From Bimastos eiseni (lineage: Eukaryota; Annelida; Clitellata; Crassiclitellata; Lumbricidae), in assembly GCA_959347315.1 (NCBI GenBank), contig OY365807.1, positions 35,209,312 to 35,273,311 on the forward strand: DNA of 64,000 bases, in the 5' to 3' direction. Below, one piece after another: positions 12,204 to 54,046 of this stretch. The translations under genes were made by a program, and so were the position numbers. How positions within the stretch are numbered: position 1 is the stretch's first letter; each line of letters opens with the position of its first letter. The notes beneath the pieces were generated by a model. It had not been told where the DNA came from. It worked only from the letters and a program-made list of their open reading frames with translations, and made no database searches.

Positions 12204-12230
12204 ATGGAAGGAGGATTCACAGACCTTAAG
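12204..12230 (+). CDS. HGD: HGD exon 1 (start exon)
   Basis: The ATG at 12204 opens nine codons (MEGGFTDLK) ending in AAG before GTTTTT, a weak donor. Phase 0 and the position just before the YLSGFG segment match the start of vertebrate HGD (MAELK). It is the least certain HGD exon because it is short and its residues are not conserved. Confidence 0.65.
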
Positions 12231-12690: not shown

Positions 12691-15600
12691 GATGTGTGCG
12701 TGCTTGTGTGTGTTTAAAAAATGGTCTATTTTGAAACCTTACTAATGTAATTACAGCTACATTTTTAAGGTTTTGTAATTGACTATCACAAGTGCCTTAA
12801 TGAGGCAGTTATAACATTGGCCTACATATACTGTAGATGCTACATAGGCCTAGGTTTCGCCTACATGTAGATGCTATTATGGCATTTTTATATAGTAGTT
12901 ATGCAATATTTTGTGACGAGACGTTTATAATCAATATACCATTACTAATTTACCTAACCTGATATGGTGGTTATAATTTAGCACTACAACATTAACTACC
13001 TCTATATGGAAGTTTTAATATACTATGTAAGACAAGGAGTAATATAGAGGGGAAGAAACTCTGCCACTGTATTGACTTTGACAGTGCCAGTCCCAAGCCT
13101 GGAGAAAGGAGGAGGGCGACGCCAAATCATCTTCGATATGAAAGTGGTAAATATCTGGTTACATGGGGCGTACACGGTCCGCGTGATTGTGACTCGACCG
13201 TACGCATCTGAAGGATGGTCTGATGCAGTCACATGGTCTGGGCAACTGGCTCTAGAAAACTCCAACATGTTCGAAGTTACTGAGCACATTCTGCACATAG
13301 ATGAAAATATTTGTCAAAATGACAACGATGGCTAGAAACAAGAAACACTTCATGATTCTCTTAAAATCGAAATTGTTTAACGTGTGCAAACATAAAGTGT
13401 CTCCGTATGCTATGTTTAGTACCTTTCTGGGTTTGGAGCCGAGTTGGCTTCAGAAGATCCAAGATGCCCAGCTGCACTTCCTGTTGGCCAGGTTTGTGAA
13501 ATCTTTGTGTCCATTATGCATATTGTTTTGTGTTGTGTACTATTAAAATGTGCAGTAATTGATTTTCAAAATCTTTATGTTGAGCTCAGTTGACATATTA
13601 GTGTGTCATGATATGATTATGGGTTATGAAATATGCATTATATTGTACAGTGTGTCAATTACTGAGAGATGTGCTCTGTAAATGTTAAATTGTGTGCCTT
13701 TCTTTGTCCTGTTAAGTTCAACTTAATAATTAATTAATTATGCTCTGTCTGATCTATCAGAACACTCCACAACAATGTCCTTATGGGTTATATGCAGAAC
13801 AGCTGTCGGGAACGGCCTTCACTGCGCCAAGAGATCAAAACCGACGAAGGTAGGAAATTCAGAAGACACTTCACAAAACTCATTTTATATTACTATCACA
13901 TTTTAGTTCTGTGAGAAATAATTCTTTATTATCTGGGGGGGGGAGGAGGAGCCCATAGAGCAACGAAGAACATACTGTGGTGCATAGCTGAGGAGCCGAG
14001 TTCTATTTCCATTTCCCTCATAAAGTTGACTGGTTCTTCCTTCGCGAGGGGACCGATAGAAATAATTATGTTGCAGGACATAATAATTTATACTAAGAGC
14101 CTTACTATATGATCCTTCTAGAAAAAATGGAGAAACTTCAATTGTAGCATTATAAAGACTTCTCAGGCCTTTTCTGACACTGTAGTGAGTCAAGAGGCTT
14201 TGCACAATAATAAACATTTTATTTAGGCAACTTTATAAAATGAACATGGAGCCAGAAGATAACATTATGCTAATTCTGCAAATGTGCTTCATTTTAAGTT
14301 TAATTGATCTTAAACTGCAGAAATTATATCAGTCTTATATTGATATAATTGTTGATTGTTGCACTACTGAGGCATGACTTTTCTATCAAGTACACAATAC
14401 ACGGATATCAATATCAAACTGGTACCAGCTGATTCAATTCGACTGAAAATCTTTGATTCGCTGGTCACTGCTCTGGCTTCATGTTTATATACTGTATATA
14501 TATATATATTTATATATATGATATATATATATATACTATATATATTATTTTTTCACTATTTTTTCAGCTGACTTTATCGTATCAGACCATCTGTGGTTCA
14601 TTATCCATGGACTAAGGAAACTGATCAAGGAAATCTAACCAGTCGATTCGATGAGGCGGAACCAAATCCAGCTCAGGTGCCATGACTTTCAGTATCATTT
14701 CATTTGTGATCTCATTGTCTGTTTGACTGTGAAATTTTACAAAATGTTTTCATGGATGCCTTTTAACTTTTTTCTTTTAAGCCTTCTTTTGTCCAAATGT
14801 TTTGTTTAACTTTTTATCTTCGATTTTTTTGTTCTTCCTCTGAGTGCAAGGCAATATAGAATTTTCCTTTACTTTTCTTTTATGTTTCAGGATTTGTGAA
14901 ACATTTTGTTTCATCTGCTCTTTGATTAAGTGCATTGTCATTCAATTTTACTCTGGTTTTTGTTTTATTTGTGGATTGTTGAGACAGGTGGATTTCGTTT
15001 TTTTAAATGTGTGCTTAATTTAATTAAAAACAGAGTTTTGGGTCAGTTCAAGCAGGTCTGTACCGAGCTATAATTGCGCCCTGTGCCTAGAATTAATCTG
15101 GCGCCCTGTGCCTAGAATTAATCTGGCGCCCCACATTATGAAAATAGTGCATTTTATGGAATAATAATTTATTTCATCCTGAAATTTGCGCTTTTTCCAC
15201 ATTTGCACTTTGGGCTATGGCCCGCTGGCCCCTCCCTCAGTACGACCCTGAGTTCAAACAGTTTTTGTTCTGTTTTTGAGTTATGAGAGTTTAAAAATGT
15301 AAAATGCATGGGCTAAGACCGTGTCTATGTCTGTAACTATGACTATTAGTCTCTGACTATGACCATGACTATGACTGTGACCATGACTATGACTGTGACC
15401 ATGACTATGACTGTGACCATTACTATGACCACTATGATGTCCAAATGTCACTTGTAATAAGTTGTTTCACTCTTCGCTCTTCGTGTTTTCTTTCAGTTTA
15501 GTCTAATTACTGATTTGTGTTTCAAATGCAGTTATCAAAGACCATTTCTTAAATTGATGCTTTGTTTTAGAACTGTGTTCAATCAATAGCTTCTGAGTAG

Positions 15601-18264
15601 TTCGTATTTACATAGGATATTTAAAAGGCATTTTGATATTCATGTTAACAGTTAAGATGGCAACCATTTGACATACCTAGCAAGGATAGCAGCCAAGTGG
15701 ACTTTGTTCAGGTGAATAATTATAACAACAGGTATTTAGTGTATTTCCGTTTTTTAGATAATTATTTGGTTGAAAATCTTTTGAGTACGTAACATGGTTT
15801 CAAACAAGTTTGCTTTGCTTTTAGGATGGATGTAGACATTTATTTGACTGTCGCCTTTGCACATACAGTTACAATGTAGCAACGTCCTTTCTCTATTATT
15901 GGCCCTGTGACTTGGAACGGGCTTCCTCGGGAGGTACACTGCCTCCTTCAGGTCCTTTTCTCATCGTTCTATCGGCTGCTGAAGGGTGCTTTTCCCTCCT
16001 ATTCTAGGTCGGGAGCTTCTCTGAGTGGAGACTTTGATATAAATGTCAATCATTTGCCTGATTGATTACTAAATTTGGATATGGCCTTTGTAATTTTGCC
16101 AGGGTTTGAACACGATAGCAGGAGCTGGTGATCCTAAGATTCGAAATGGTCTGGCTATTCATATCTACTGCTGCAATAAATCAATGGGAGACAAGTAAGA
16201 CATAGGAATACTTTGGTCTTGCATTATCATCAGCACAATCATCATCATAATCATCATCAAGCTGTATTATTTTCCTAATGATAATTATTATTTACTTAAT
16301 AAAAACAAATACATCAGTTCAACTAAAGTTACTTTCTTTCCAATTGCCACTGCTTGGTAGTAATTTGCCATTTACTAAATACAATGCAATATTGACATTA
16401 ATAGAAAAAGATGACTTCACTAGGGGGGGATGAGAAAATCTTACACAACGCACATGAATGCAGTGTGGCCACCGAGTACCAGCCACCTTCACTAGTGGGC
16501 GACAACTTATTTGACAACACGAATGCAACCTAGCCGCTGAGAAGAAGATCGATAGATACCTTTGCTAGAAGCAACAATAACCTTTACACAATGGATGCGA
16601 ATGTAGCATAGTCGCTGAGTACCAGCCGCCTTCGCTAGGGGTGACAAGAAATTGTTTTCAAATTTTTTTCAAACCATCATAGCATAGACAATATGTTTAA
16701 ATATTAAAATTCGTTTTGAGAGTCTTAGCATGGGCAATGATCTCGAAGCCAGGTTACAAGGTCTACAAATTTTGTTACAGTTATTTGTTACTCTTTGAAA
16801 ATAGTTTTGAACATGCATTATGAAAGTAATTCCTTGCATCACTGCTTTTTTATTAGTCTTTTGAGGATCTTCTCACTAATCAGAAGATTCTTATTGAATT
16901 GACAATCTTTTAATCATCTAATAAGTTCTTTTTGCTTGTGAATATGTGAAATACTCATTAAATTTGAGGATGGGCAAATATCTAGTGATAAATAAAAGTT
17001 AGACATTTGTATTTGTGCTCATATGTACATATGGATTGGAAATTTTTATAGCAGTTGCTATGTTTGGTCTGGGTTTTCAGTTTGATCGTTGGCATCTTGG
17101 GTTGCCGATTCATCATGTTCTCATTCTTACTGTGAATTGGTGTTGTTTACTTAAAATTCTTAGAAGGAGCAGAGAGTGGACAATTATATTTCAATGTTGA
17201 CAGTAAAAGTCCTATAAAAATCAAGAGTACAAACTCAATACAAATTACTTTAGTGATATGCAGTTAGTGCAACAAAATGAACCATTGATGCATGTCATGT
17301 CAAAGACACTGTGACAAAAGTGAATAAAAAAGGGAAAAAGCAGGCAGACACAAGAAAACAAAAGAAGAAGGCAGGAAGACAGAAACACAGACATTCACAG
17401 CGACTTTGAAGAATAAAATTTTTAAAGAAAATAAATTAGCCACATTTACTGTGTTGTGTTTTAGGGCATTTTACAGTTCGGACGGAGATTTCTTAATAGG
17501 TGAGAGCAGTTGAAGGATGTCAGAATACGATTACATTAATGCGTCTTCATGGCTGCACAAATTAACATTTTACAAACAGACCCATATCAGGAAGTTCATC
17601 GTGGTTTGAGCTTCTGCTGTTTAGAAAAGCGATGAATGTCATTATTTCTTAGTTGCTCAGAGAGTTTGAAATTGACTTTATCTAAAGGTGTCTTAATTGA
17701 CGTTCCCATTAGCTGCAATATGATTTGGTCTGTATGTAGTAATAATGCTTGGTAAATGGTATGAGTTTCATTTTGTTGGCTCATTATTGCTATGTGACTT
17801 CTGGGATGCTTTTAGTTTTTGTCTGAAGTGGTAAGAAAATGTAGGCCATAGGCATGTGTTAATCTTTGATAGGTAATAAAAAGGGCAACACACCCTTGTT
17901 TTGATCATGAGTTTATAGTCATAATTCACTGAGCGGGCACTTGAGTAGTTACCAGAATTCACAACTGTCAAATTGATAATGCAAAACTCAGGGAAACTTC
18001 ATATTTTGTAAAGCTTCTGATCATGTAGTATTATATCTTGATGGATAATTCTAGTTTGGTTAGATGTCAGTAAACATGTTAGTTGGACCGTTACATTGGA
18101 ACTCCTTGCCGTTACCAATTCGAAGTCTCCCATTGTGTGTAGCACAGGAGACATTTTCTAGACTATTGAAGACGCATTTATTTCAGAACTGTTAGATAGC
18201 TTCGGTAAGCACCCTTGTGAGATTCTTGTAGGGCGCTATATAAATGTTCATATACATACATACA

Positions 18265-18297
<33 letters not shown>

Positions 18298-21200
18298 GCA
18301 TTGACAGAGTAAAATATGCAGCATCGAAAAGGTCTTGGCTATGAAATTGAAATTTGAATGTTCAGCTGAGCAGGTGGTATGGTCACCCATTTAAATATAA
18401 CTCTGGTTTACATTATAACTTATATGCACTTGTTGGTGGCATATCAACCAAACAATCAAAGTCTAATAATATATTGATTGTATTTTATGATAAGCGGCAA
18501 CGTTGTTAATTTTAATTTTTTCATTCAACAGTTGGCATATATTTCCAATTTCATGAGGGGTTGGTGTTTAGAGACAATGGCCTATAAAACGAGTTGAAAT
18601 TGCTCATTGCAATCAAAATACCAGTTTGTAGTACAGCAGAGCCTCTTATCAGCTGACGGGCTTCATTCTTTCAGACATGATTATAAAAGCAAAGATGGTT
18701 AATGGCCATCATGAACATTTTCATGTCATGCATGATCTGCCTTTCTAGTTCAATGACCATCGTTAACTTGGTAGTAAATGCCGATATCCCGTAAAAGAAA
18801 CAATGCTGATAGTAATAATGACACTAATAGTCCACTCTTGCCTTGCCCCATTTTTCAAACAAGAAACTAGGAAGTTGTAACGATAATATTGGTACTAATA
18901 AGAACAAATTGTGTTGTTGTTAAAAATGTATAAAATAATATTAATGATAAGATGCATATTCAAAAATATATTTGAAAATTTCTGTTTTTGGTGTAGTTCC
19001 TCAGCAAGGGACACTCTACATTACAACTGAGTTTGGGAAATTGACTGTTGAACCACTTGAGATCTGTATTATCCAAGTAAGCCATTCCATCACTTCTTCC
19101 AGATCTACTGATTTGGCTTTTCTCAACATAGGAACACAAAAGCTTCCAAAATTAGATTTCTTCTCTGCTGAGTATTAAACATGGAACCTCTTAACCAATC
19201 TGTGTATTATTGCTATAGCTGGGTCGTATACGATGCTACTGTTTTTTAAGAGGTTTAGCTATTTGGATTAAGTATGAACATAGTGTGAAATCTGTATTTT
19301 CATTGAAGATATGAATGCATTGTCGTAGAATGTGATTGTTCTGTTGTTACAAGGTGAAGCTGCTGTAAGGCTGAACATACCAAAGTTATCTGCAGATGCT
19401 ATAAAGTTATATTCCTATGAACTGATGCCTACCTAGTGCAGGCATAACAGGCATAAATTATATTCTCAGATTCAGTCAGTTTGATAGAAAGGGCATCGAT
19501 ATTTGATGTATGATTTAAGGTTTGATTTAAGTTGCAGTGATTGTGCAAATCTGCTCTTGTCTGTTTAGCTGGGAATGCGTTTCAGCATTGCTGTTGCTGG
19601 GGATTCAAGGGGTTACATACTAGAGGTATATGACACGCACTTCAATCTGCCTGACCTTGGACCAATTGGGGCGAATGGGCTTGCGAATCCAAGGGACTTT
19701 AAGATTCCGGTGGCTTGGTATGAAGATCGAGATGTACCAAACTTTCAGGTTGTGGCCAAGTATCAGGGCGCCTTGCTTTCTGTAAAACAGGTAATTCTCT
19801 GTTCTTCAAAGTAATACAACAGGAATACTTATGCATTAACAGTGTAACAGCACAAGTTAACATTGCCCTAACCTTTGCTGAGTAAGATGGATGGAGTGTG
19901 TTAGTGTAAGTTTAAAAGAGGATGATGAACTGATAACATTTGGTCGACTAGCTTCCTGGAAATTGTGATGTGACTTCTAGATTAAATACAGGCATAACAT
20001 GTTATGTGATTGATCAGTTTACCCACAGAGCATGTTCTCATATTTGCATGTCAGTGACATCTGGCTCGGCTGGCCGTCCAACTCTAGAAAAAGAGCCTAT
20101 ACAATATCAACAAGTCAGATTTGTTATTTCGAAGTTCTCACTTTAACCTCACCAGTTTCACTCTGAAAAACTGCCCTAACATGTCTTGTGGCCTCTCCAA
20201 CATCTCAGACTAAAGTGCATTTTCACCATGGATTCATACAATCTTGACCTATTTAACTTCATCTGAAGCACTGATTGATGCTTAGCTTGTTATGATTGTG
20301 GTGCTATATAAATCTTTACATTATATTCTTTGGTTGTGATTGTTGTTGTGTTGACATTGCACAGGATCATTCGCCATTCGATGTGGTTGGTTGGCATGGC
20401 AACTACTTCCCATACAAGTACCACCTGAACAATTTCATGGCCGTTAACTCAGTCATTTTTGATCATGCTGTAAGTTAATACTTTCTTCGAAATCAGTCAG
20501 TACAAGTTTTTCTGGTGTATTTAGTTGTGCTTTGAAGAATGACTGAATGAAAAAATGTTAAGGTCAGTCAGTTTGGAACGAGAAGGAGATGATGATGATG
20601 GTGGTGGTGGCTGGTGACAGTGACGAAGACGATGACAATGATGAAGATGACGACGATGAGATTCAACTTAGACATGACTTGATAAGGTTCTTGGAACATT
20701 TGCTCTGCCGTGGAATGGATTGGGGAAGATTATATATTTGGTGCAATGAGTTTATGGCTGAGTAAGTCAAAACTTATTCAGTAGATAGCAGACATTCTAT
20801 TGAATACATCAATCTGAAAATGAGTTGTTGAATTATTCATGCAGCATATTACCTTTTACATGCCACAGGTGCAACATTGCGACAATGGAAAACTTTCTGT
20901 CATTACAGGCATATAATGGTAATATTGTAGGTGCCATTATACTAGCTTCAAAGTTAGGGAACCAGCATTTGTCCTAAGACAAATACTGGTGCAAGCAGGG
21001 TGTAGCTAGGCACTTTTATTTCAATGCAAGAACACAAGATTTTAATGATATGCAGGGAAATACTATTAAAAATGTTAAAGATCCTCAGGAGAAATGAAGG
21101 ACAATTATAATATTGGAAATCTGTCAACTCTGACATGTTTAATGAGCAACTTCGGCAACTTTAGACAGAATAAAATGCTGAAATGGTACAGAAGGCAAAT

Positions 21201-24200
21201 AGACAACCAACATCGCCAATGACATTTGTCGATCCCAAAACTATACATTATGAAACTGACACTCACAAAGAATCAAATCAACAGATAGAACAAAGTAAAC
21301 AGATAGAACGAAATAAACAGATAGAATCAAATGAACAGATAGAACTAAATCAACAGATAGAACAAAATGAACAGATAGAATCAAATCAACTGATAGAATC
21401 AACTCAACAGATAGCATCAACTCAACAGATAGAACGAAATAAACAGATAGAATCAAATCAACAGATAGAACGAAATAAACAGATAGAATCAAATCAACAG
21501 ATGGAATCAAATCAACATATAGAACAAAATAAACAGATTGAACAAAATAACGAAACAAATAGATAGAATCAATTTAACAGATAGAACGAAATAAACAGAT
21601 GGAATCAAATCAACATATAGGAAGAAATAAACAGATAGAATCAAATCAACAGATAGAAAAAATAAATAGATAGAATCAAATCATCAGATAGAACGAAATA
21701 AACAGATAGAACTAAATAAACAGATAGAACTAAATAAACAGATAGAATCAAATCAACAGTTAGAACTAAATCAACAGATGGAACAAAAGAAACAGATATA
21801 ATCAAATCAACAGATAAAACTAAATTAACAGATAAAACTAAATAAACAGATAGAATCAAATCAACAGATAGAATCAACTCAACAGATAGAATCCACTCAA
21901 CAGATAGAACGAAATAAACAGATAGAATCAAATCAACAGAGACAACGAAAAAAACAGATAGAATGAACTCAATGGATAGAACGAAATAAACAGATAGAAT
22001 CAACTCAACAGATCGAATCAAATCAACAGATGGAACAAAATATACAGATTGAACAAAATAAATAGATAGAATCAAATCAACAGATCGAATCAAATCAACA
22101 TATAGAACAAAATAAACAGATTGAACAAAATAACGAAACAAATAGATAGAATCAATTTAACAGATAGAATGAAATAAACAGATGGAATCAAATCAACATA
22201 TAGGAAGAAATAAACAGATAGAATCAAATCAACAGATAGAAAAAATAAATAGATAGAATCAAATCATCAGATAGAACGAAATAAACAGATAGAACTAAAT
22301 AAACAGATAGAACTAAATAAACAGATAGAATCAAATCAACAGTTAGAACTAAATCAACAGATGGAACAAAAGAAACAGATATAATCAAATCAACAGATAA
22401 AACTAAATTAACAGATAAAACTAAATAAACAGATAGCATCAAATCAACAGATAGAATCAACTCAACAGATAGAATCCACTCAACAGATAGAACGAAATAA
22501 ACAGATAGAATCAAATCAACAGAGACAACGAAAAAAACAGATAGAATGAACTCAATGGATAGAACGAAATAAACAGATAGAATCAACTCAACAGATCGAA
22601 TCAAATCAACAGATGGAACAAAATATACAGATTGAACAAAATAAATAGATAGAATCAAATCAACTGATAGAATCAACTCAACAGATAGAATCAACTCAAC
22701 AGATACAATCAACTCAACAGATAGAATCAAATCAACAGATAAAACGAAACAAACAGATAGAATCAATTCTACAGATAGAACGAAATAAACAGATAGAATG
22801 AAATCAACAGATAGAACGAAATAAACAGATAGACTCGAATCAACAGATAGAATCAACCCAATAGATAGAATCAAATCAACAGATGGAATCAAATCAACAG
22901 ATCGAAAAAATCAACAGATAGAATCAACTCAACAGATAGAATCAAATCAACAGATAGAACGAAATAGACAGATAGAATCAACTCAACAGATAGAATCAAA
23001 TCAACAGATAGAACGAAAAAAACAGATAAACTCGAATCAACGGATAGAATCAACCCAATAGATAGAATCAAATCAACAGAAGGAATCAAATCAGCAGATG
23101 GAGCGAAATAGACAGATAGAATCAACTCAACAGATAGAATCAAATCAACAGATAGAACGAAATAAACAGATAGACTCGAAGCAACAGATAGAATCAACCC
23201 AATAGATAGAATCAAATCAACAGATGGAATCAAATCAACAGATAGAAAAAATCAACAGATAGAATCAAATCAACAGATGGGATCAAATCAAGAGATAGAA
23301 CGAAATAGACAGATAGAATCAACTCAACAGATAGAATGAAATCAACTGATAGAACGAAATAAACAGATAGACTCGAATCAACAGATAGAATCAACCCAAT
23401 AGATAGAATCAAATCAACAGATGGAATCAAATCAACAGATAGAAAAAATCAACAGATAGAAAAAATCAGCAGGTAGAATCAAATCAACAGATGGAATCAA
23501 ATCAGCAGATAGAATCAAATCAACTGATAGACTTAAATCAACAGATAGAACGAAATAAACAGATAGAATCAAATCAACAGATTCTCCTCCATCTATCATT
23601 TATCACCCTACTTAATGATGGTGTGCTTAACTACATAGGACAAATGCTGTTCCCTACAATTCAATGTGTTATGGTAAATGTATCTGTGATATTGCAATTT
23701 ATTCGGGGTGCATTGGTGCAAATGAGGGTTGATGATAGCCGATTGAAACATTTGTCGATTGTTATTACACCCATTGACTTGCATTCACTTACTAACCTAT
23801 TTGGTGTGGCACGACATTGGGATAGTTGACCCACTTTATCCCTTTTCCTCATTTGGCATTACTTTCTTCCATCCCCCTTTGCTGACATCACAATTCAGCA
23901 TCATATGACGAAGTAATATATCAGAGCATAGACAATATCATTATTAGTTTGCACTTTTTTACCTTACTTCTATAAAGAGATGTGCCTTGACACTGCTGTG
24001 TCGAGCTAGGAAATACAGTGAAACACCATTAATGCAAGCACCGGTAACCTGCAAGTCCTGTTTACACGTGGTGCCGCCTCGCCTCCAGATGTCATGAGAT
24101 TAACGCATGTGAATTGTTGACACATGGTTTAAATAGTAAGATGTTACGTACACTTTGCAGTGCGAGTCTTCTTGTATCCTGCTTCAGTGTTATAACTGGA

Positions 24201-27200
24201 GATGATAGAAAATGTGTGTCTCTCTCCAGTGCATTTTAGACCATCAGTTTTCAAACAGCGGTGAGGGTACCACTAGTGGTGCACCAGATTTTCTAACTGG
24301 TATAAGTTTACGGACTGAATGACCCTCTTGATCAGCTATTTACCTCCAAATGTGCTTCTTTTTCTGTATATTTTCTGTGCGATTATGCCCATCTTTCGTT
24401 GATTAGCTTTCCGACCAATACTTAAAAGGACTTTTTCAGTGTTTCCCCATAATAACTTATCGCAAGGGGACTTCGCGCTCGCCTCTTGTTTTAGTTCTAA
24501 CCTCTACTGGTGATACGCCAACATCCAATTTTTTACCTGGCTGTACAATAGAAGTAAAGTTTGAAAACTGTTTTGGACTATTTAGACTAGTGACACGTAT
24601 ATACTATACAAGGCATGATACAAAGTATATGCGAACTTTGACTGCATAGCAAAGTCCATTAAAGACAATCCAATACAAAAGGAGGCTCTGTATGCTGCCT
24701 GGCTGATGTTGATCCTGGTCTTCAAGGCTCTGGCGGTATTGAAATAACTATTCACCTCCCCATGATTAGTTTTAACACACTACCTCCCCATCTTTCATAT
24801 TTGCATATGTCCTGCATGAACTTCATCACAGCTTGACCTATTTAAAATGGCTTTGGTAACTCTTGTTTGCAAAATGGAAAATTTGGCTCCTAATCTGTGA
24901 ATTTTGCATACCGGTGTATGTGTGTGTATGTGCGTGTGTGGGTGTATGTGTGTGTGTATGTGTGTGTGTATGTGTGTGTATATGTGCGTGTGGGTGTATG
25001 TGTGGGTGTATGTGTGGGTGTATGTGTGGGTGTATGTGCGTGTGTGGGTGTGTGTGGGTGTGGGTGTATGTGTGGGTGTATGTGTGGGTGTATGTGTGTG
25101 TGTATGTGTGTGTGTATGTGTGTGTCTGTATATTCATGTCTGTGTGCATGTGTATTTGTAGGATCCTTCCATTTTTACCGTCTTGACTTGTCCAAGTGTT
25201 CGACCTGGAGTGGCAATTGCAGACTTTGTAATTTTTCCACCTCGTTGGACAGTAACTGAGCATACCTTCCGTCCGCCTTATTACCACAGTGAGTAAGATA
25301 AATTCAGTTGGAAAAGCAACATTCACTTTATTCCTAACATTTGTCAAAGTGTTTAAAGATGTGATATGCTCACTGAAGCATATTATTACCAGCCAAACAT
25401 ATAAATGCAGTAAGTGGAGCCTACAGTGTATCACAGTGGAACATAGAGGCAGGCTGATCAGAAGCGACAGTCGTTGGATTGAAGACTAATCACACCACAC
25501 ATCACTAGACAGATCAGGAGACAGATCATCTAACAAATCACCAGACAGATCACCAGACAGATCACCAGACAGATCACCAGACAGATCACCATGCGGCACT
25601 GCCACAGGACCAATCTAATATTTAAAGTTATAATATATATCTTCTCATTTAATGATAGTTATTCAAACTGACACCCCACAGTAAGTTAAGACAAATCTAC
25701 AATTTCGAGTTTTTGGACTAGAATACATGAAATAAATAAGGGAAATGTACTATACACAAATTATTATACAAACTTGAATTATGTCATTCCTGTAATTTAA
25801 AAATTCTGTTAGTAATAATTTTTATATTGTGAGTTGAAACTGACAATTAGGGGGGGGGGCAGGTGTAGAGTAATGGATAACACACTGGGGAGCAAAGCTG
25901 AGGAACCAAGTTCAAAACCCAGTTGCAGTGTTGGTTAAATTAAATTTACATGTATATCGTAATGGTTGCCGACATCATTCGTTCATACTACGTCTGTAAT
26001 CATACTGTGTTGTTGTCAGTTTGAAAAATGAACGCAAATTATTTTTATTATGAATGTCTGATTATTATAAGATGCCATTAGTTTTCTTATTTTGCAACCT
26101 ATATGGCATGTTAAGTTAACGATGTCAATTGATGTCTTTGCATAGGCTGTTTTGTTTGTTTTCTTAGCTTGCTCCAACTAAAAATACTAATTTTACTTTA
26201 GGAAACTATGAGTGAATTCATGGGTTTGATTGTTGGAACTTATGAGGCAAAGGTAAGAAATATAAAATGTTTGCAGATGTATACTGAGTGAACTCATTAA
26301 GTTTTTTGATGGTTAACTGCATGTGGTTCGCGACCAAGTCAGCAACTTGTCCATTCATTAAATCACTGGTCGATCCTTTTTGCATAATTATTGGTGTCGT
26401 AATTTCGTAAAATAAATAAAATAAAACCAGAAGTAAAAATGAAACAAATTAAATTTAAGTTTCTTCTTTTGGTTCTCTGCACTCCTAGGCAGGTTCGTAT
26501 GTCCTATGTCACTTAACCTAAGCTACCTTTTCTTTATTCTTTTATGTTGTATAGTGGTCCTTTAATCATTTTATCATCGGTTGATGATTGTCAAACAGTA
26601 ATACATAGACGTGCAGAACAGGATGTGGGTTCGATGCCTGCCAGTCCCATACAGTTGACTGGGCTTTCCACTCCCTAGGGGGCGATGGCAAAGTGAACAG
26701 CAGTATAACGACAGATTGGTGCCCATTGTCTAAGCCTTCACCTGCTCTCGAATCAAATACTGCAATTCTCTCTTGGATGGTCTTCATAATTAGTTCATCT
26801 CCATACTCTCTAGTCTGTTCTAAGTGCCTCGGTCATGCAGCATCTCTGCTTTCATTCACGCTGGACCATCTTTATTGGCTCCCCTTCATTACGTGGATTC
26901 ACATTAATCTACCAGTTGTATACTGGCCAATCTACAGATACCTTATTCACATACATTAATTTACCAGTTGTATACTGGCCAATCTACAGATACCTTATTC
27001 ACACATATTAATCTACCAGTTGTATACTGGCCAATCTACAGATACCTTATTCACATACATTAATCTACCAGTTGTATACTGGCCAATAAACCGAGGACCT
27101 GCATGACCTCATTCACATACATTAATCTACCGGTTGAATACTGGCGAATCTACCGAGTATCTACGTGACTTCATCCACATGTCATCATATGCCACTTCTC

Positions 27201-30131
27201 CATGTCCACTCAACTTGACCGATATGATCTCTGTGTCCCATGAGTGAGGACTAGTCTACTACAGCTAAACCAGGAACCTTTGCCTTCACTGGTACTGCAC
27301 TATGGAGCCAACTCCCTGCTTTGACACATTCCTCCTCACCAACTGATGAGCCAAGTGCCTCTTTTCGTTGTCTGAAGACCACTTACTTTTATCTGGGTCT
27401 CTCACACTACCCTTTAAATTTTTAGATACAGTACAATACAATAAACACAGTTATGAAATCGATTCTTGTTTAACTTGTTAACAGTATTCTTTTTGTTTCA
27501 TGAAATCATACTGTTGTCTGTTTGGTTCAATTTAATAATCGAATACTATAATCTTTATTATTAGTTCTTTTATTTGTTCGCATCTATAGCTAACTACATG
27601 AATAACGTTCAAGCTCATTGAGTTGAAAGGTCATGGTCGCAGTTGTTTGTCTAATTAGATTAAATTTTTTTTAATTGAACTGAATAAGCTGCTGTTTACT
27701 AGGAAGCAGGATTTCGTACAGGAGGTGCCACTCTGCACAGCATAATGACCCCTCATGGACCAGATGCAGATTGCTTTGAGAAGTCCTCTATTGCAGATCT
27801 GAAGCCAGAGAAGATTGCCCAGGGAACCATAGTATGTGGCTGGCAATGATTATTTTTATTGCAAATGCTCAACACTCCTTCAACACTGTCATGTCAACAC
27901 AGCTATCGTTATTTTAATATTTTATAAGTTTTCTAAGTAAAAGAAAATAAATTCTCATGTAGTAAAAAATTTGTTTGTGAGCCTTGAGAATATGTCCTGA
28001 ATTGCTAGGGAGCATATAGGGTTCTAAGGTTTGAAGGTAAGCACTAAGGCATGCAATATTAAATTTCATATACCATTGAGTAGGAAGCCAGTGAAGTTCA
28101 CAAAGGCAATTCAACACATCTATCAAGAAGAATAATATATTTAACAATCACGGAAGGAGAGTTCTGAACCATTGAGATCATTTTTAGAGTAGAAGGGGAT
28201 TTACCATATGCCACCATGTTGCAGTCTAATCGAGAACCAACAAATTCATCACAAGTTCTATAAATATACGATTTGTTTGGTTTGCTTGGTTCAAGAACAA
28301 ATTGCCAATTTGACAGGAATTATTTGATGCTTCAGTATTAAAATCCAGGATGGAGATTATTTTAATTTTGCAGATTTTTTTTATTACAACATCAAGATTG
28401 TAATCTTCGTATCACAATCACAGAATTATTAGTTCTGTTTTATGAGCCGTCAGATGATGGATCTTGATGCATGTCATATTTGAACTATAGAAATTGAGAT
28501 AAGTAGTATTTCGGTGACTTAACTCCCTCGTTGCTGAGCTGGTGTACAATACAATACAATATTCGTGGAAGTCGCCCAAAGGTCTACAAGCTGTAATAGC
28601 TACAACTTCAATTATAATTAGGCAATCAGGTTAAGTCATTGCTTTGTAGAAAGGAAGGATTCTCTGTTCCTCCTTAGGGCATAATTTAGTTTTCTATACA
28701 TCTATTGGGGTCTACATCTTCGTATATAAAAGGAGATGAGGTCTGCCTAGATGACTCTGGTTAGCACTAACTTATTAGGTACCTAGGCCTGGATTGCCGT
28801 ACATACAATCTCATCAAGCCACTGGCCCTTCGTGCAGGTGGATGCAGTGCAGACTAAGGCATACCGGTACATTGTCAATGTCTGCCCACAAACTCTTTAA
28901 ATGGCCTAATATCAAACTGATAATTTTTGAACTGATAAGCCCTCATTTAAGTTATTAGCTAGACCTTAACCCATGAGCTGATATTGCTACCTAATGCAAC
29001 ACAGGTAAGACTTTAATTATTGGTTCTTTAGCACCTTCGATAGGTTTTTATAAGGCGCTATATAAATAGCCAGATACATACATACATTGATCTAAGAAAG
29101 GTTGCCCATAAAAATGGTCGCTGAGATGAATGTTGCCCAACGCTATTGTCATATGCATTACTGCAGTTAAAGTTGGCATTTTATCCAGGCATTCATGTTT
29201 GAATCCTGCCTGAGCTTTGCAGTCACTCCTTGGGGCCAGAAGTACAGCAACAAGGTTGATGAGGACTACTGCAAATGCTGGCAACCATTGAAGAAGCACT
29301 TTGACCCAAACTGGAAGCCAGTGTAAGTGCGAAAATCATTGTCATAATTATTTAGCATAAATTCTCAGACATTTTTGAATGAATTATCATAATTTAATGC
29401 CAGTTTAATTTGGCCACATCGCTATGCACATGTGGAATGTCCTCAACTGGTTCATGGTCAACCAGTGCATCCATTATTTGATCTCCTCTGTCATCAGACA
29501 TTGTGTCCTGGACAGTATGCCACTTTGCCTGTCTATCTTTAAAAACTCTTTACCTTAACTTCGGCTGCAGCTCTGGTCGCCAATCCCTGCGAACAGCCTC
29601 CAGAGGCAACCTTGTGGTTCCACATGGTCATTCAGTCGTCAGATAGAATATGGATTTCTTGATGGTGCATTCGTCTGTTTGGAATTGCCTCCCCTCTGAC
29701 CTGTCTGGCTCTGTTATAAACTACTGAAGACTTTCCTCTTTGGCTCTGCCTGGGTCAGAGTGCCTCTGAATAATTATCTTGAAGGAACGCTGTATAAATT
29801 TCATATATATAATGTACTGTAAATAGTTATATCAACTGTATCATTTATAGAATGGCAGATTTGAAATCATAAACCTGTTTTAGTGCTTAAGGCAAGTTTT
29901 CAGAGGTTTTTTGCTTGTATTTACTCTCATTGGAGTGTCATTCCTAAATCGGGTTAAGTGTAGTAAATGTGAAGTCTAGGATTGAGCAATTGCTGCTTTC
30001 ATAGCAGAAGTGTACATTAAACAGATTGAGAAAGTTACATCTTTTCTTGATTACTCTTTTCCTGCTTGCCTGTTTGCAGAGTCAATGTTGCAGCGCTGAC
30101 ATCAGATCTGAAAAAGTTGTCAACTAAATGA
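12204..30131 (+). CDS. HGD: Homogentisate 1,2-dioxygenase gene, 15 exons, possibly disrupted
   Basis: HGD is the Fe(II) cytosolic enzyme that opens the ring of homogentisate to maleylacetoacetate in phenylalanine/tyrosine catabolism. Exons read by eye: 12204-12230, 13420-13491, 13761-13849, 14568-14676, 15652-15711, 16103-16194, 17465-17499, 18997-19076, 19569-19790, 20365-20469, 25162-25288, 26202-26252, 27703-27831, 29189-29322 and 30080-30131. They give about 461 codons; human HGD has 445 residues and the alignment is nearly colinear. Iron ligands equivalent to human His335 (PPYYH), Glu341 (MSEFMG) and His371 (TPHGPDAD) are all visible. Two defects stand out: codon 64, the equivalent of human Trp60, is TGA at 14569-14571, and the exon 11-12 junction is out of phase. 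All other junctions are in phase with GT-AG sites. The identity is firm; whether this copy is functional is uncertain. Confidence 0.93.
12633..12712. repeat. (TG)n microsatellite, HGD intron 1
   Basis: A pure TG run of more than 25 units with a slightly interrupted end. Confidence 0.95.
13420..13491 (+). CDS. HGD: HGD exon 2
   Basis: 24 codons, phase 0 to 0, from YLSGFGAEL to LPVGQ, containing SEDPRCP as in human HGD. The acceptor is TATGTTTAG and the donor CAG|GTTTGT. Confidence 0.93.
13761..13849 (+). CDS. HGD: HGD exon 3
   Basis: 29 codons plus two bases, with [19 protein letters not shown] matching the conserved N-terminal core. It ends in phase 2 (AG), which is completed by the C of exon 4 to give serine. 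Confidence 0.94.
13934..14060 (+). mobile_element. SINE family B head, copy 3, HGD intron 3
   Basis: A G-run, then CATAGAGCAACGAAGAACATAC, GCATAGCTGAGGAGCCGAGTT and CCATTTCCCTC. It corresponds to the 5' part of the other two copies; the 3' part is unclear. Confidence 0.55.
14496..14548. repeat. (TA)n run, HGD intron 3
   Basis: An interrupted TATATA tract that ends about 20 bp before the acceptor of HGD exon 4. Confidence 0.9.
14568..14676 (+). CDS. HGD: HGD exon 4, with in-frame TGA
   Basis: The exon follows a clean acceptor (TTTTTTCAG) and reads [13 protein letters not shown] through EAEPNPAQ to CAG|GTGCCA. The codon just before LYRI, where HGD proteins normally have Trp (human W60), is TGA at 14569-14571. 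The exon length, 1+108, keeps phase. Confidence 0.9.
15048..15255. repeat. Dispersed repeat, copy 2, HGD intron 4
   Basis: ACCGAGCTATAATTGCGCCC, then a direct duplication of CCTGTGCCTAGAATTAATCT, and later CATCCTGAAATTTGCGC and GGCCCGCTGGCCCC. A shorter relative of 9425-9760. Confidence 0.7.
15340..15430. repeat. 18-bp minisatellite, HGD intron 4
   Basis: GACTATGACTGTGACCAT repeated about four to five times with small changes. Confidence 0.85.
15652..15711 (+). CDS. HGD: HGD exon 5
   Basis: 20 codons, [20 protein letters not shown], phase 0 to 0, between AACAG and CAG|GTGAAT. It matches human LRWKPFEIP...VDFVS. Confidence 0.93.
15830..16030 (+). mobile_element. LINE C-terminal remnant, HGD intron 5
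   Basis: Reads [15 protein letters not shown] and [13 protein letters not shown], the WNxLP...FYRLLK pattern of non-LTR RT tails. It lies only about 75-270 bp before HGD exon 6. Confidence 0.55.
16103..16194 (+). CDS. HGD: HGD exon 6
   Basis: 30 codons plus two bases, reading [20 protein letters not shown] and then CCNKSMGD. The acceptor is TTTTGCCAG and the donor AA|GTAAGA. Confidence 0.94.
16415..16640. repeat. Diverged tandem repeat, about 85 bp, HGD intron 6
   Basis: Three imperfect units sharing ACACAACG..GAATGCA, GCCGCTGAG/ACCGAGTACCAGCC and CTTCGCTAGGGG-like blocks. Confidence 0.55.
17465..17499 (+). CDS. HGD: HGD exon 7 (35 bp)
   Basis: A 35-bp exon encoding [11 protein letters not shown] plus split codons at both ends. 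The acceptor is GTTTTAG and the donor G|GTGAGA. Human HGD has FYNSDGDFLIV here. Confidence 0.92.
18075..18300 (+). mobile_element. LINE C-terminal tail with (CATA)n, HGD intron 7
   Basis: Reads [18 protein letters not shown] and [13 protein letters not shown], then stop, GGGCGCTATATAAATG and a (CATA)n microsatellite at 18252-18293. Confidence 0.65.
18997..19076 (+). CDS. HGD: HGD exon 8
   Basis: Two bases complete Val, then [19 protein letters not shown] and LEICIIQ, followed by CAA|GTAAGC. Colinear with human PQKGNLLIYTEFGK. Confidence 0.94.
19569..19790 (+). CDS. HGD: HGD exon 9
   Basis: 74 codons and the most conserved block: [32 protein letters not shown] and WYEDRDVP through KYQG, ending in AAACAG|GTAATT. 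Phase 0 to 0. Confidence 0.97.
20020..20335 (+). mobile_element. Probable LINE 3' end, HGD intron 9
   Basis: Ends with TGTGGTGCTATATAAATCT, like the other plus-strand LINE tails. The coding part is not clearly readable. It ends about 30 bp before HGD exon 10. Confidence 0.35.
20365..20469 (+). CDS. HGD: HGD exon 10
   Basis: 35 codons from [19 protein letters not shown] to VIFDHA, between TTGCACAG and GCT|GTAAGT. It carries the WHGNY segment near the active site. Confidence 0.96.
20585..20665. repeat. GATGATG/GACGATG simple repeat, HGD intron 10
   Basis: A purine-rich GATGAT, GGTGGTG and GACGATG tract about 120 bp after HGD exon 10. Confidence 0.7.
21262..23585. repeat. 2.3 kb minisatellite, 18-bp unit, HGD intron 10
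   Basis: The unit is near AATCAACAGATAGAATCA. Variants change AATC/ACTC/AACGAAAT and CAACAG/AAACAG. Because 18 is divisible by three, long frames stay open on both strands: plus strand N-Q-Q-I-E-S/R, minus strand L-I-L-S-V-D/Y-F-V. These are by-products, not genes. Higher-order structure: a segment starting CGAAACAAATAGATAG at 21551 recurs at 22134 (period 583), and a shorter unit with AGACTCGAATCAACAGATAG recurs four times at 22.8-23.4 kb. Confidence 0.95.
24245..24570. mobile_element. hAT-like MITE, HGD intron 10
   Basis: 326 bp bounded by a perfect 12-bp inverted repeat, CAGTTTTCAAAC and GTTTGAAAACTG. No clear flanking duplication (TTTTAGAC is 3 bp outside the left end; TTTTGGAC abuts the right). 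No ORF. Confidence 0.6.
24915..25137. repeat. TG-rich (GTGTATGTGTGG)n repeat up to HGD exon 11
   Basis: Units of GTGTATGTGTGGGTGTATGT and (GTGT)n ending about 25 bp before the splice acceptor of HGD exon 11. The spurious Cys/Val and His/Thr frames here are not genes. Confidence 0.95.
25162..25288 (+). CDS. HGD: HGD exon 11 (carries iron-ligand His)
   Basis: 42 codons from DPSIFTVLT through [18 protein letters not shown] to FRPPYYH, plus one A before GTGAGTAAG. The last His corresponds to human His335. The acceptor TTTGTAG lies at the end of a TG-rich repeat rather than a pyrimidine tract. Confidence 0.95.
25505..25592. repeat. 12-bp minisatellite, HGD intron 11
   Basis: CAGATCACCAGA repeated about six times with edge variants. 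Confidence 0.85.
25850..26075 (+). mobile_element. tRNA-derived SINE, family B, copy 2, HGD intron 11
   Basis: A G-run, then GTAGAGTAATGGATAACACAC, GAACCAAGTTCAAAACCC and a 3' part CGTTCATACTACGTCTGTAA and CAGTTTGAAAAATGAACG. It aligns with the copy at 56.9 kb over its length and ends about 130 bp before HGD exon 12. Confidence 0.68.
26202..26252 (+). CDS. HGD: HGD exon 12 (carries iron-ligand Glu)
   Basis: The in-frame reading [17 protein letters not shown] (17 codons) lies between CTTTAG and AAG|GTAAGA. The Glu of MSEF is the human Glu341 equivalent. Phase 0 at its 5' end does not match the phase-1 end of exon 11. Confidence 0.88.
26690..27430 (+). mobile_element. LINE C-terminal remnant with internal tandem expansion, HGD intron 12
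   Basis: [10 protein letters not shown] near 26860 and [16 protein letters not shown] near 27280 flank a 52-bp tandem repeat (26898-27175). It reads like an RT C-terminus in which one segment has been multiplied. Confidence 0.45.
26898..27175. repeat. 52-bp tandem repeat, HGD intron 12
   Basis: CCAGTTGTATACTGGCCAAT recurs at 26912, 26964, 27016 and 27068, with a diverged fifth copy at about 27130. Each unit contains the palindrome-like CCAGTTGTATACTGG. Confidence 0.9.
27703..27831 (+). CDS. HGD: HGD exon 13
   Basis: 43 codons with [19 protein letters not shown] and PDADCFEK, equivalent to the human segment holding His365 and iron ligand His371. Acceptor TACTAG, donor ATA|GTATGT, phase 0 to 0. 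Confidence 0.96.
27930..28260 (-). mobile_element. Non-LTR RT fragment in HGD intron 13
   Basis: The minus strand reads [20 protein letters not shown] and [14 protein letters not shown], the ELHWLP...YxPS pattern of LINE RT C-termini, opposite to HGD. Frames are interrupted. Confidence 0.55.
29189..29322 (+). CDS. HGD: HGD exon 14
   Basis: [20 protein letters not shown] through [11 protein letters not shown] to NWKPV, ending in phase 2 (GT|GTAAGT). Human: AFMFESSLSLAVTKWG...CWEPLKSHF. Confidence 0.95.
29400..29815 (+). mobile_element. CR1-like LINE C-terminal fragment in HGD intron 14
   Basis: Reads [17 protein letters not shown], then [16 protein letters not shown] and RLSSLALPG, then CTTGAAGGAACGCTGTATAAAT. 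The pattern matches non-LTR RT C-termini; it is broken by stops. Confidence 0.65.
30080..30131 (+). CDS. HGD: HGD exon 15 (terminal)
   Basis: Acceptor TTTGCAG, then [16 protein letters not shown] and TGA at 30129-30131. The tail is longer than the human C-terminus (PAEPN) and not conserved, as usual for this end. An ATTAAA at 30838 could be the poly(A) signal. Confidence 0.8.
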
Positions 30132-34059: not shown

Positions 34060-35886
34060 ATTGTTCCAACACCAGAAAGAAGGACTGGATTGCAGACGCC
34101 ATCTGGTGCCTGGTCCAGCGCAAGCGACGAGCCAAACTGAATGGACAGAAAGAAGAACGTTTGAGACTACAGAAGGTGTGCAGAGCCTCTCTACGACTAG
34201 ACCAACAGAAATGGGCCGATGACAAGGCAACAGAAGCAGAATTAGCATTATCACAAGGGCAACATACTTAATTAGAGATGCCTTTGCAAATTTTAGGAAA
34301 CTTCGGTCTGCAGTCCTGCGCGTCTCCTACCCCATCAAGGATGAGAGTGGACAGCTCCTGAGCAATCGAACCGAGAAGATAGAGCGATGGAAAGAACACT
34401 TCAGCACATTGCTGAACAAACCACCACCTGTCGCCCCACTGTTCTCAAGCACTGACCCTGTAGAGGACATCACTATAGATTGCTCATTTTCAACAGAGCA
34501 GGAGGTTTCGGTTCGAGTACAGAGGATGAAATTAAAATGGAAGAGCGCCCAGGATCTGCCGCATCACAGCCGAAATGCTCAAAGTTGGGGGAGGAGCTTA
34601 CGAGAGTTACCTGTGAGGCATGGCGCACCGGAATAATGCCCCTTGATTGGAAACGGGATATCATCCTACCGTTTTACAAAGGCAAAGGAAGCCGTAAAGA
34701 CTGCAAGAACTACAGAGGCATCTCGTTAATGTCAGTGTCAGGGAAAGTGTTTGCAAGCCTTCTCGTATCAAGAGTTAAGGACCGCTTATTGCTCCTCGGA
34801 TGTAAGGAGCAAAGCGGGTTTACGCCAGGAAGATCCACGGTCGACCGCATATTCACTCTCAACTGCCTGATCCAGATGCGACAAGAGTTTCGGCAGCCTC
34901 TGTGCATAACATATGTTGACCTTAGGGCCGCTTTTGACTCGATCGACCGAGCGGCTCTTTGGCGCCGTATACTTCGCACCCTGGGTCTACCAGCAAAAAT
35001 TGTAGACCTCACAAGAGAGTTGTACACCGATACAACAAGTGCAGTTCAGATGGACGGTATATTATCAGAGTGGTTCCGTATAGATAGTGGAGTGCGGCAG
35101 GGATGCAACATTGCCCCGGATGCGTTCCTGGCACCTATGGACTGTGTGATGGAGCAGACAGTAAACGAAGCCCACCCAAGCCCACCCTGGGACGCGAGAC
35201 CTTCTTTGAACTGGACTTCGCGGATGATATGGCCATTATGTCTGATATGCTAGAGGTCTTGGTCCTGTCACTCGAGTTACTTGATGCAAATGCACGCAGA
35301 TTTGGCCTGGAAATCAAATGGGGAAAACCAAAATCCAGACCATAGTAAAATAGCAGAGCCCACCAACAGTACCGATAGCAGGAAATGAGGTGGAAATGGT
35401 ACCCAGGTTCACATACCTGGGCACATGCGTGGGCTGCACCGGAGACAGTGAACAGGAGGTACGCAGAAGAATTGCCCTTGCCCAGAACTGAATGTCCTAC
35501 CTCCAGCGTGGCATATCATGGAACTCAACCATACCGTATTCATTCTGCCGGTCCTGCTATATGGTGCAGAGACCTGGATCCTAACAAAAGCTCTAAAAAA
35601 CAAGCTGGACGCATTCCACCAGCGGTGCCTCCGTAGGATACTGCGTGTTCCGTTTGTGGCCCATATTGCCAACGAGGAAATTTATAGTCGAACACACCAA
35701 GAACCAATCACCGAACGCGATGCCTGAAACTCTTCGGACACATCGCACGATCCGAGAGCAACCAGTAACACGCAAGAGCATTGCGAGCCATGATTGCATG
35801 ACCATGCACCCGCGGACTGGAAGAAACCGTTGGGACGACCAAGACACTCCTGGGGACGAGTAGTGAAGAATGACCTAGACCCCATG
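34060..35886 (+). mobile_element. RTE-like LINE ORF2 fragment (reverse transcriptase), degenerate
   Basis: Reverse-transcriptase motifs appear in order but in several frames: WIADAIWCLVQRKRRAKLN near the start, YRGISLMSVSGKVFASL, EQSGFTPGRSTVDRIF, VDLRAAFDSIDR, GVRQGCNIAPDAF, the catalytic box FADDMAI (about 35217-35237), then VLLYGAETWILTKALKN and CLRRILRVPF. At least two frameshifts (near 34.55 and 35.17 kb) and stops make it a pseudogene. The 5' endonuclease region is missing. It breaks off at about 35886, where an oppositely oriented CR1-like LINE starts. Confidence 0.85.
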
Positions 35887-44583: not shown

Positions 44584-45254
44584 TCAGTACTTGGCTAGAC
44601 AGCCGAAGTTCTTCGAAGAAAGGTCGTAAGGCTTCACCTGGTCATCAACTTTGCACAGCCAATTGTCTGGATGCCACGAGGGCAAATAGAAGCCTCTGTC
44701 GCCAAGGCAGTTCCCTACTGCGCCCAAAGCAATGGGACCTATATCTGAGACAGCTGGGAAGTCAAGGCGACGCAATGTATCTACAGAGTATGAGCCGAAG
44801 AGTATCGAAGCCGCTCCTCGACTGAACCCAAGCGACGTTCCGGCTGAGACGAAGCTCTTCTCATCCTGTTCTGCGGACCGAGACGGCGACTTCAAGAATC
44901 CATTCGACCTTGACGGATGGGTTTCGAATAACGTCGAACGCTGTACGTCGACGGCGGTTGTCTGGATATGCCTGACGCCTGTGCTAGGCCACTGGAGAAG
45001 AAGACGACGTGACAGAACCCTCGGCTCAATGGACATGGCTGCTGTGGTCGTTCTAGAGCTGAGTTCACGAGGTCGAGGGACGCCAGAGTGTTGGACGTCC
45101 ATGTGGCGACGCAGGTCGATCTTCTTCTGGAAGGTTCTGGGACAGAGGTGGCACGTGAATGGTCGGTAGTTGGAATGCTTGCGACTGTGGGTTATCAGGT
45201 TCGAAGACTGGCTGAATGCCTTGCCGCAAAGGCGACACACGTATGGCTTCTCGC
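44584..45254 (-). CDS. Gfi1/Senseless-like terminal exon (zinc fingers 3-4 and tail)
   Basis: 671 nt, preceded on the minus strand by acceptor TTGTAG. It encodes [13 protein letters not shown]...HSRKH and [13 protein letters not shown]...HMDVQH, then about 160 residues of non-zinc-finger tail rich in Ser/Arg and hydrophobics, ending in LAKY and TGA at 44586-44584. Vertebrate Gfi1 stops a few residues after its last finger, so the tail is unusual. Confidence 0.87.
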
Positions 45255-48044
45255 CTACAACAGTTTCTCAGTCTTTACCATAAGGTAAACCATAGCCTAT
45301 AAGTTGACTCTATCTGAAGTACAAATAACCTACAATAGCCTTTTTCTACTCGGCCCTAAGTGTTGAAAAAGTTGTTTAGCATCTCTAGTAAATAAAAACG
45401 TAGGCCTAAATGTAAATCGTCATATTATCCACAGTTTAGCGAAGGCTCATGTTAGCGACATATAGTTTGCATGCAGCGGTTCTCATCCTTTTTAGTCCTG
45501 CGACCACCTAATAATATTTCAAAAGGTGTGGCGTCCCTCGGCTATTAAAAGTATTGGGTTGCTGTCTTCACCGTGTTTGACTAGGCCTATCATGCATTTT
45601 ATTTCTTATCATTTTGACAATCCATAGCAGCTTAACAGCATGATCAATCGATTAACAGAACAATTTAAAATTTGCTGTTGGCAATAATTTTATTGAGAGA
45701 ATCATAGTCAATCAATCAATCATAAATACTTTATATAGCGCCCCATGACGATATGTACTCAGAGATGCTCCCGGCCTAACCTTCGGCTGAAAGAGGACAA
45801 GAAGTAAGAACAGATTAATCAAAGTCAATATAGTAGAATGCTAGTTCGTGTAATAATCACGATTTTAATAATAATAACGCCGATTTATATGGCGCCGTAA
45901 ACGCGGCCCAAACCACTACAAGGGCGCCGTACAACCTAAAACGAAAATCAGCAAACAGAATAAGCCTTAGAAAAGATAAAAACTTTCAGTTTAGTTTTAA
46001 ATGAGTCTACTGAGTCGGCCAATCTGACGGTAAGTGGGAGACCGTTCCAACACCGCGGATCAGCAGTCGAGAAAGCACGGTCTTCGAAATGCACACGGAG
46101 ATCGGTCTTCACAGAGGATCTGACTCGCAGACCGGACGCGGAGGAGTGAGTCCCGAAGCAGAAACCGCGCAAATACCCGAGAGCTAATCCACGTATCGAT
46201 CTGTAGACGAGCAAGCATAGCTTGAAGTCAATGCGGTAGGGAACAGAAAGCCAGTGCAGAACGTCGCGAAGGAGTGGCGTAACATGGTCATATCTCCGCC
46301 TGTTACAGATGAGTCAAGCGGCAGCGTTTAGCACCGACTGAAGGCAGTTCAGGAGGCACGCCGGCACGCCGGCAAGAGGACTATTGCAGCGATTCACATG
46401 CAAGACGACAAAGGCAGCACCGGCTGCTCTCGCGGCCTCGAGAGGCAAGGACCTTATGCAGCTCCTTATGAGACGGAGTTAACGAAAGCAGTAGCCAACC
46501 TTCGAAGCGACATGGAGTCTCTTGGACAGATTTGACTTCAGGAGGACGCCAAGATCGCGCACCGAGGTCGAAGGCGCTATTGAGGCCCCACATAAGGTCA
46601 GCGGGCTGGTGTCAAGGTGTTGACGTTGTCTGCTAGTATCGCACTATAGGAAGTCGGTCTTCTCGGGGTTAAGCCGCAGTCGATTGGATCGCATCCACAC
46701 CATGCTCCATACGGCGACGCAGGTGATCCGTCTCTGAAGGAGGCCCCGACGTGTATAGCTGCGTGTCTCGGCGTAGAAGTGTGATGACAGCCCATGAGAC
46801 GCAGCGATCTCACCAACGTCGGCGGTGTATAGCAGGAATAGGATCGGTCCCAGCACGGACCCTTGTAGGACACCGCAGCTGAGTGGGCGGGCGGATGAGA
46901 AAACACCGTCAAAGAGCACGATCTGGTGGCGTTCAACATGTTCGGCCGAGCAGGGGTCCCGCACTTTATGGGTCCTCACATATGCAGAGCAGCAGAAGAA
47001 AAATATTCTTTTGCCACGAGTGACTCTAATATTATTAAAGGATGTCTACTTAAACACCAGATTAGATAATTATTGGCACAAGAAGAAAGGAGGCATGAAT
47101 AAAAATAGAAAATTTTTGCATATTTGATAACATTTAATGTTTCTTTGTTGAATTTGACACGCTTTATGTGTTCTTTTGTTGTGATTCTTTGAGACTGGGG
47201 TCCCAACAGTTCTACTGAATAGGATCACCACATTTATTTATCCGCCCTGAGAGGAAGACCTTCCCAAGAGGAAGACTTTTGAGGACGTGATCAGGAGTTG
47301 AAAAGGGATAAGTCTCAGGATGCCGGAAGCGCAGGCCTACCCCAAGTGCAGGCCTACAATAAGTGGACATGGAACAAGGCCGTAAACTTCTCCGAACATT
47401 TCCGATTTTAAGGCTACTTCTCCAGTTTCAATCAATGCCATTAGGCAACCTTGGCCTATGTCTGAAATCCTCTAATTAACTCCTTTTGTATTGATTGCAA
47501 TGTTTCTTGGAACAATGGATTTCCACGGTGTAGTACTACGACTAATAGTCCAGTATTTGCCATTATAGAATAATTATCAATCAATCAATCAATCAATCAA
47601 TGTGAATTTGATATAGCGCCCCTTCAAGATATCTACTCAGATGCGCTCATTATGTGTGCGACTCGGTTAGAATAATAATGGCTCGCACTTTTGCTCCTTA
47701 GCAGATGGCACCAACAGCTGGAACTTGGTTAGCTTTGTGAAAGAAAATGTTGGGACGTTCTTCACGCAATCTACAGTTCCTAATGCAGAGGAATGCATGA
47801 AACCTGCGTCTACAGCACATGCAATGTGTTGTAATCGAACAATTGAATTGTGCCGCTCAAAATCAGTAGGTAGATACCAGAGAACCAGAGGTATATATAT
47901 TATATATTATATATATATTATATATATATAGATATTATATATATAGGAAAGTCTTTAGACTTCTCCAAAAGTTGGTAACAGTCGTCAGTCAAGTTTAGAG
48001 ATAGGCAGAACCGTTGAATGGAAATCTCTTCCCTACGAATCTGC

Positions 48045-53086: not shown

Positions 53087-53099
53087 CTAAAAGAGAAAG

Positions 53100-54046
53100 A
53101 GAAGACAGCTCATAAAATAGTCCTGCTGAAGGCTCTCATCCTTTCCTTGTCATCATCATTGGCGTATACATGTATACTGGAATGGGACTCATGCAACTAG
53201 TTAGAGGCTAAGAAGTCACACAGTACTCTAAATTACCATACACAAATCAAAACAGTTAACCCTAGAATAGGTTATATATCTTAAACGTTACACCCCAGTC
53301 GTGTCGAGGGTTTGGCGATCGTTCCCCAACCCAAACTCCCGTTGGTAGACGCCACTCAGTCTGGTCATCGCTTACTCCCATTGTCTCCCTTTCCTCCTCT
53401 CATCCCTTCAGCCTCGTGCCCTTCATGATTACTTTCTTCATCATCGATACGTTGGAGTTGTTATCGTCTGTAAATTTATAACCAGCTGACGAATAAACTA
53501 TAATCATATAATCATTGTGATGTTTTTTTAATTGTAGGCCTAAGGCCAATGTTGATACCTTGCAATGCTTTTCGTGTACGTAAGCAATTATTTATAATGC
53601 ATACGTTGTATGGCATCAATGTTTTGCTTTGCAGAGTATATGAGCTTTAAATCACGTGGAAATTGTTTAAACTTTCATTGAAACATTCTATGACATTTGG
53701 TAACTTTTACACAAGGTAATTGTAGTTGAGATGGAAATAAGACTGCTGTCTGGGAATATATCCTTATAGATACGTATAGGCCTATGTACATTATGTACAA
53801 ATTGAGAAAGTCTAAGATTTTAGCCTATTGGAATGATTCTATACCGCTGTGTTTACACTATGAACCTAGCAAAGGACTTTCCTCGGATCTGTGTGGCCAG
53901 TAGGCATATCTGTTAAATAAATCCACTACCAGAAGGCTTTACCTTTTTCAAAAGTTATTGGTTGTTTTGTCAAGTGTCATGGACACTCATATAGTAGATC
54001 AGTGCTGACCATGCATGGACTACATGACGGTATACCGCAACTGGAA
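53100..54046. other. Upstream flank of the visible Gfi1/Senseless-like exons
   Basis: Expected to be intron if a SNAG-encoding first exon lies further to the right. I searched for an MPRSFLVK-like frame on the minus strand out to 64 kb and saw none. Confidence 0.35.

Follow-up and report, generated by a model that had tools for sequence, protein, structure and literature searches.

The homogentisate dioxygenase (HGD) gene carried by the window, i.e., the whole stretch of 64,000 nucleotides of Bimastos eiseni DNA that we analysed (contig OY365807.1, positions 35,209,312 to 35,273,311), is almost certainly an ordinary duplicated (unprocessed) pseudogene lying in a large segmental duplication. 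Duplicated pseudogenes within segmental duplications are a known class. The assembly contains four intron-bearing HGD copies, all on this one contig: copy A is that of the window, copy B lies 123 kb downstream, in tandem with A at a period of about 123 kb, copy D is found at 37.4 Mb in inverted orientation, and copy C is found at 40.46 Mb, about 5.2 Mb downstream of A. Copies A, B and D each carry disabling lesions, and copy C is intact.

The first lesion of copy A is an in-frame TGA (14569..14571, plus strand) at a near-invariant tryptophan position of HGD. Exon 3 (13761..13849) ends with CGA CGA AG and exon 4 (14568..14676) begins with C TGA CTT TAT CGT ATC; splicing the two, at GT and AG sites, gives R-R-S-stop-L-Y-R-I, which is the junction described in a first-pass annotation of this DNA, and both the reading frame and the AG acceptor preceding the stop are as stated there. 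Among 120 listed homologues (of 7,999 scored), the position is occupied by tryptophan in 119 and by tyrosine in one. In the numbering of copy C the residue is Trp64; the codon is TGG in C and D and TGA in A and B only. The base that makes TGG into TGA is also the sole difference between A and C in exon 4, which supports the earlier proposal of a single G-to-A change. That annotation pointed to the human variant W60G, by its account an alkaptonuria mutation; in the open-licence literature, we found no paper mentioning W60G together with HGD and alkaptonuria, or together with homogentisate. The last three bases of the exon 4 acceptor are AAG in intact copy C and CAG in the three broken copies.

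A second lesion of copy A, absent from the first-pass finding, is a 2-bp deletion in exon 12 (26202..26252; 51 nt, vs 53 in copy C). The deletion junction, at 26206..26207, shifts the frame just after Arg340-Asn341 and removes the C-terminal quarter of HGD. All 120 listed homologues share R340, N341, M343, S344 and E345 with copy C, and 117 share C342. The frame of copy A does not continue through the C-terminal domain, being interrupted at codon 64 and then at codon 344 and beyond.

The other exons of copy A are all recognizable on the plus strand: exon 1 (12204..12230, counted from the start ATG, its coding part identical to that of C), exon 2 (13420..13491), exon 5 (15652..15711), exon 6 (16103..16194), exon 7 (17465..17499), exon 8 (18997..19076), exon 9 (19569..19790), exon 10 (20365..20469, absent in copy B), exon 11 (25162..25288), exon 13 (27703..27831), exon 14 (29189..29322) and exon 15, the last (30080..30131). 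Compared with C, and excluding exon 12 (whose length differs), copy A shows the nonsense change, six missense changes and two synonymous ones. The missense changes K214N (in exon 9, together with one of the synonymous changes, likewise common to B), P363T and M400I (exon 13), and L410F and Y428C (exon 14) are all shared with B, while P459S (exon 15) is shared with both B and D. Given the nonsense codon, the frameshift and the six missense changes, copy A cannot encode the full enzyme, and it would make no useful product.

This conclusion would not change if the TGA were circumvented. A candidate alternative acceptor AG (14584..14585, plus strand), 18 nt downstream and in frame, would skip the TGA by turning SWLYRI into one Arg; this agrees with the earlier remark that no acceptor close by spares LYRI, at least for the one site that we checked. 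The resulting product would have 337 residues, ending at the exon 12 frameshift, and if the TGA were read through or edited, the product would stop at 343 residues, likewise within exon 12. Because the frameshift persists, no bypass at the TGA alone is predicted to restore a full enzyme from copy A.

The tally of four copies is based on two genome searches. The search with PF04209, the C-terminal HGD family, scores best candidates only (here 18 of 18 first-look candidates were scored) and gave 12 matches, all of them inside the four copies. A DNA search with 121 bases around exon 4 (14560-14680) gave four matches, all four candidates being scored: besides copy A itself, these were copy B (contig positions 35347050-35347170, 100% identical to A, with TGA), copy C (40460751-40460871, 98%, with TGG) and copy D (37427647-37427762, on the strand opposite to A, 94%, with TGG). 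The question raised in the first-pass annotation, whether there is another HGD copy, is thus answered by three more, one of them intact.

Copy C comprises 15 exons and 14 introns, all of the latter with GT/AG boundaries, and a single open frame of 461 codons with no internal stop. A 445-aa version of its product, predating the identification of the last exon, scored 745.2 bits against a TIGR01015 cut-off of 510.75 and covered positions 1-429 of the 429 in the profile, a full-length match. Exon 15 was then located by means of the C-terminal end of P0001, a homologous protein of 461 aa with 93% identity. Among solved sequences, P0001 matches three distinct ones, each named homogentisate 1,2-dioxygenase, the best being 1ey2/1eyb, presumably the human enzyme. 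In a tree of 32 proteins, copy C pairs with P0001 (support 100/98), and its half of the tree includes the annelids Capitella, Ridgeia and Dimorphilus (95/83, with poor resolution within that half); another annelid, Owenia, falls in the opposite half. The end branch of copy C (0.064) is longer than that of its neighbor P0001 (0.026), so the tree does not indicate any extra constraint on C. Copy C is presumably expressed and supplies the HGD enzyme.

Copies B and D have lesions in addition to those shared with A. The 2-bp deletion in exon 12 is common to A, B and D and absent from C. Copy B also lacks exon 10, owing to a deletion of about 2.9 kb that ends in a minisatellite of intron 10, and copy D has lesions of its own: its exon 4 has lost 5 bp, and its exon 11 has lost 1 bp and carries a CGA-to-TGA change. 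The minisatellite (21269..23582 in copy A, 127.7 copies of an 18-bp unit with 78% matches) is present in all four copies with different lengths, ranging by alignment from about 0.8 kb in B through 1.9 kb in C and 2.3 kb in A to 7 kb in D.

To order these events, we examined site patterns across the four copies in 12,277 ungapped columns (1,273 exonic and 11,004 intronic), after dropping 323 gapped columns (8 exonic, 315 intronic). Because copy B is without exon 10, this exon was omitted, together with introns 9 and 10, which bear the minisatellite. Fifty-five sites join A and B against C and D, and none supports either A with C against B with D or A with D against B with C. Intron divergence is 0.13% for A/B, 0.93% for A/D, 1.46% for C/D and 1.51% for A/C (range among the four copies, 0.13-1.55%). 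Together with the shared exon 12 deletion, these distances lead to the grouping ((A,B),D) vs C, and hence to an exon 12 frameshift that is probably older than the TGA; since the comparison covers the four copies alone, we infer their root, and with it the order of the lesions. The TGA, that is, probably struck an HGD copy that was already dead.

The rates of change on the branches were also compared. The branch separating C carries 2 exon and 112 intron changes (Fisher p = 0.0006), meaning that exons have changed about 6.5-fold more slowly; this branch combines the history of C itself with the stem that A, B and D have in common, so that the low exon rate is not assignable to C alone. On the A/B branch we counted 7 changes in 1,273 exon positions and 48 in 11,004 intron positions (p = 0.51 for a rate difference), and on the D branch 5 and 48, respectively (p = 1.0). 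The branches of the broken copies therefore show no constraint, the numbers being small, and the loss of constraint proper to a pseudogene is seen, on these small numbers, for the A/B branch.

The similarity between copies extends far beyond HGD. Within the stretches compared, the surroundings of C match those of A from about window coordinate -20.0 kb to 55.6 kb, and those of D from about -20.0 kb to 62.3 kb; the value of -20.0 kb is the left limit of the sequence compared around A, and the comparison with C and D has interior gaps. C and D also match sequence farther left of the copy B unit (window coordinates 95-107 kb). Outside the minisatellite, identity between copies occurs in long blocks at about 93-100%. 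The sequence to the right of C (40500001-40510000) shares no match longer than 300 bp with the 126.7 kb around A, indicating that on this side C lies in surroundings of its own. Overall, the contig between 35.2 and 40.5 Mb is a young amplified region in which a large segment occurs four times, with one copy inverted and two arranged in tandem.

Other features of the window include two open frames with C2H2 zinc fingers by Pfam (44584-45267 and 52164-53135, both on the minus strand) and one with a THAP domain, also by Pfam (56295-56831, plus strand). Two further open frames, at 34456-35253 (plus strand) and 46644-47045 (minus strand, below the Pfam cut-off), match the RVT_1 reverse transcriptase family and are likely retroelement remnants. 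The sequence at about 62100-63230 on the plus strand resembles what we take to be the last exons of MYCBP (c-Myc-binding protein).

The alternative that survives best, although we regard it as improbable, is that some of the four copies are alleles split by misassembly, the TGA being a segregating null allele. The intron divergence between copies (0.13-1.55%) is of a size that heterozygous invertebrates can show. However, four copies are more than the two alleles of one diploid locus, copy D is inverted, and the downstream surroundings of C are unlike those of A. For one pair the idea could apply in a narrower form: B could be the second haplotype of A, placed in tandem by the assembler, in which case the TGA would be in both haplotypes.

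There is at most a slim chance that the dead copies A and B have been kept for another role in this repeatedly amplified region, for instance as a source of RNA tuning C or as donors for gene conversion. A consensus error, with TGG as the true sequence of A, is very unlikely. It would take one base only, the one separating A from C in exon 4, but copy B, 123 kb away, has the same TGA, which makes a one-off base error improbable, and B can be told from A because it has substitutions of its own and lacks exon 10. Moreover, copy A has the independent frameshift, and its differences from C comprise six missense vs two synonymous changes.

True loss of HGD in the species, which would also remove the homogentisate step from tyrosine breakdown, would fit with three of the four copies being broken, but the presence of copy C in this assembly contradicts it: C is open over all 15 exons and is separated by a branch with few exon changes. 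We give this possibility almost no weight. Equally hard to credit is a functional copy A in which the UGA is read through, edited in the RNA or avoided by alternative splicing: an in-frame acceptor does exist, but either kind of product would end before the last three exons, and exon changes on the A/B branch have accumulated at about the intron rate.

Of the explanations listed in the first-pass annotation, then, the young pseudogene is the one that stands, with TGG retained in intact copy C, while true loss, consensus error and readthrough or editing find no support; the TGA may nevertheless be a null allele rather than a fixed change. The features of copy A are those of an unprocessed pseudogene: it retains introns and flanks, unlike a retrocopy, it has an intact relative in C, and it bears disabling lesions. 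By sequence, copy C is a full-length member of the HGD family (HmgA; TIGR01015, PF20510 and PF04209), and A matches C exon by exon, differing from a functional HGD in its nonsense codon, its frameshift and its six missense differences from C. As in other unprocessed pseudogenes within segmental duplications, introns are kept, similarity continues over long flanks, lesions are partly shared and partly private to a copy, exons change at about the rate of introns and an intact relative is present. We see no difference in kind from the known cases; with one intact copy next to three broken ones, the locus displays a clear succession of steps. In the open-licence literature, we found no paper joining a homogentisate dioxygenase pseudogene with segmental duplication.

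The pseudogene of the window probably arose as follows. The ancestral HGD locus would have been copied within a large segmental duplication, and one of the resulting copies would then have gained the 2-bp deletion in exon 12. The broken segment would have been copied again, giving rise to the ancestor of A and B and to D. The A/B ancestor would subsequently have gained the TGG-to-TGA change at Trp64, before the tandem duplication, whose period is about 123 kb, produced A and B.

The case carries a warning, in that the window taken alone made a routine pseudogene resemble the possible loss of a core metabolic enzyme. Considered together, the four HGD copies offer a neat natural illustration of how pseudogenes form in recent segmental duplications, with one shared frameshift, later separate decay in A/B and in D, and one copy left intact.
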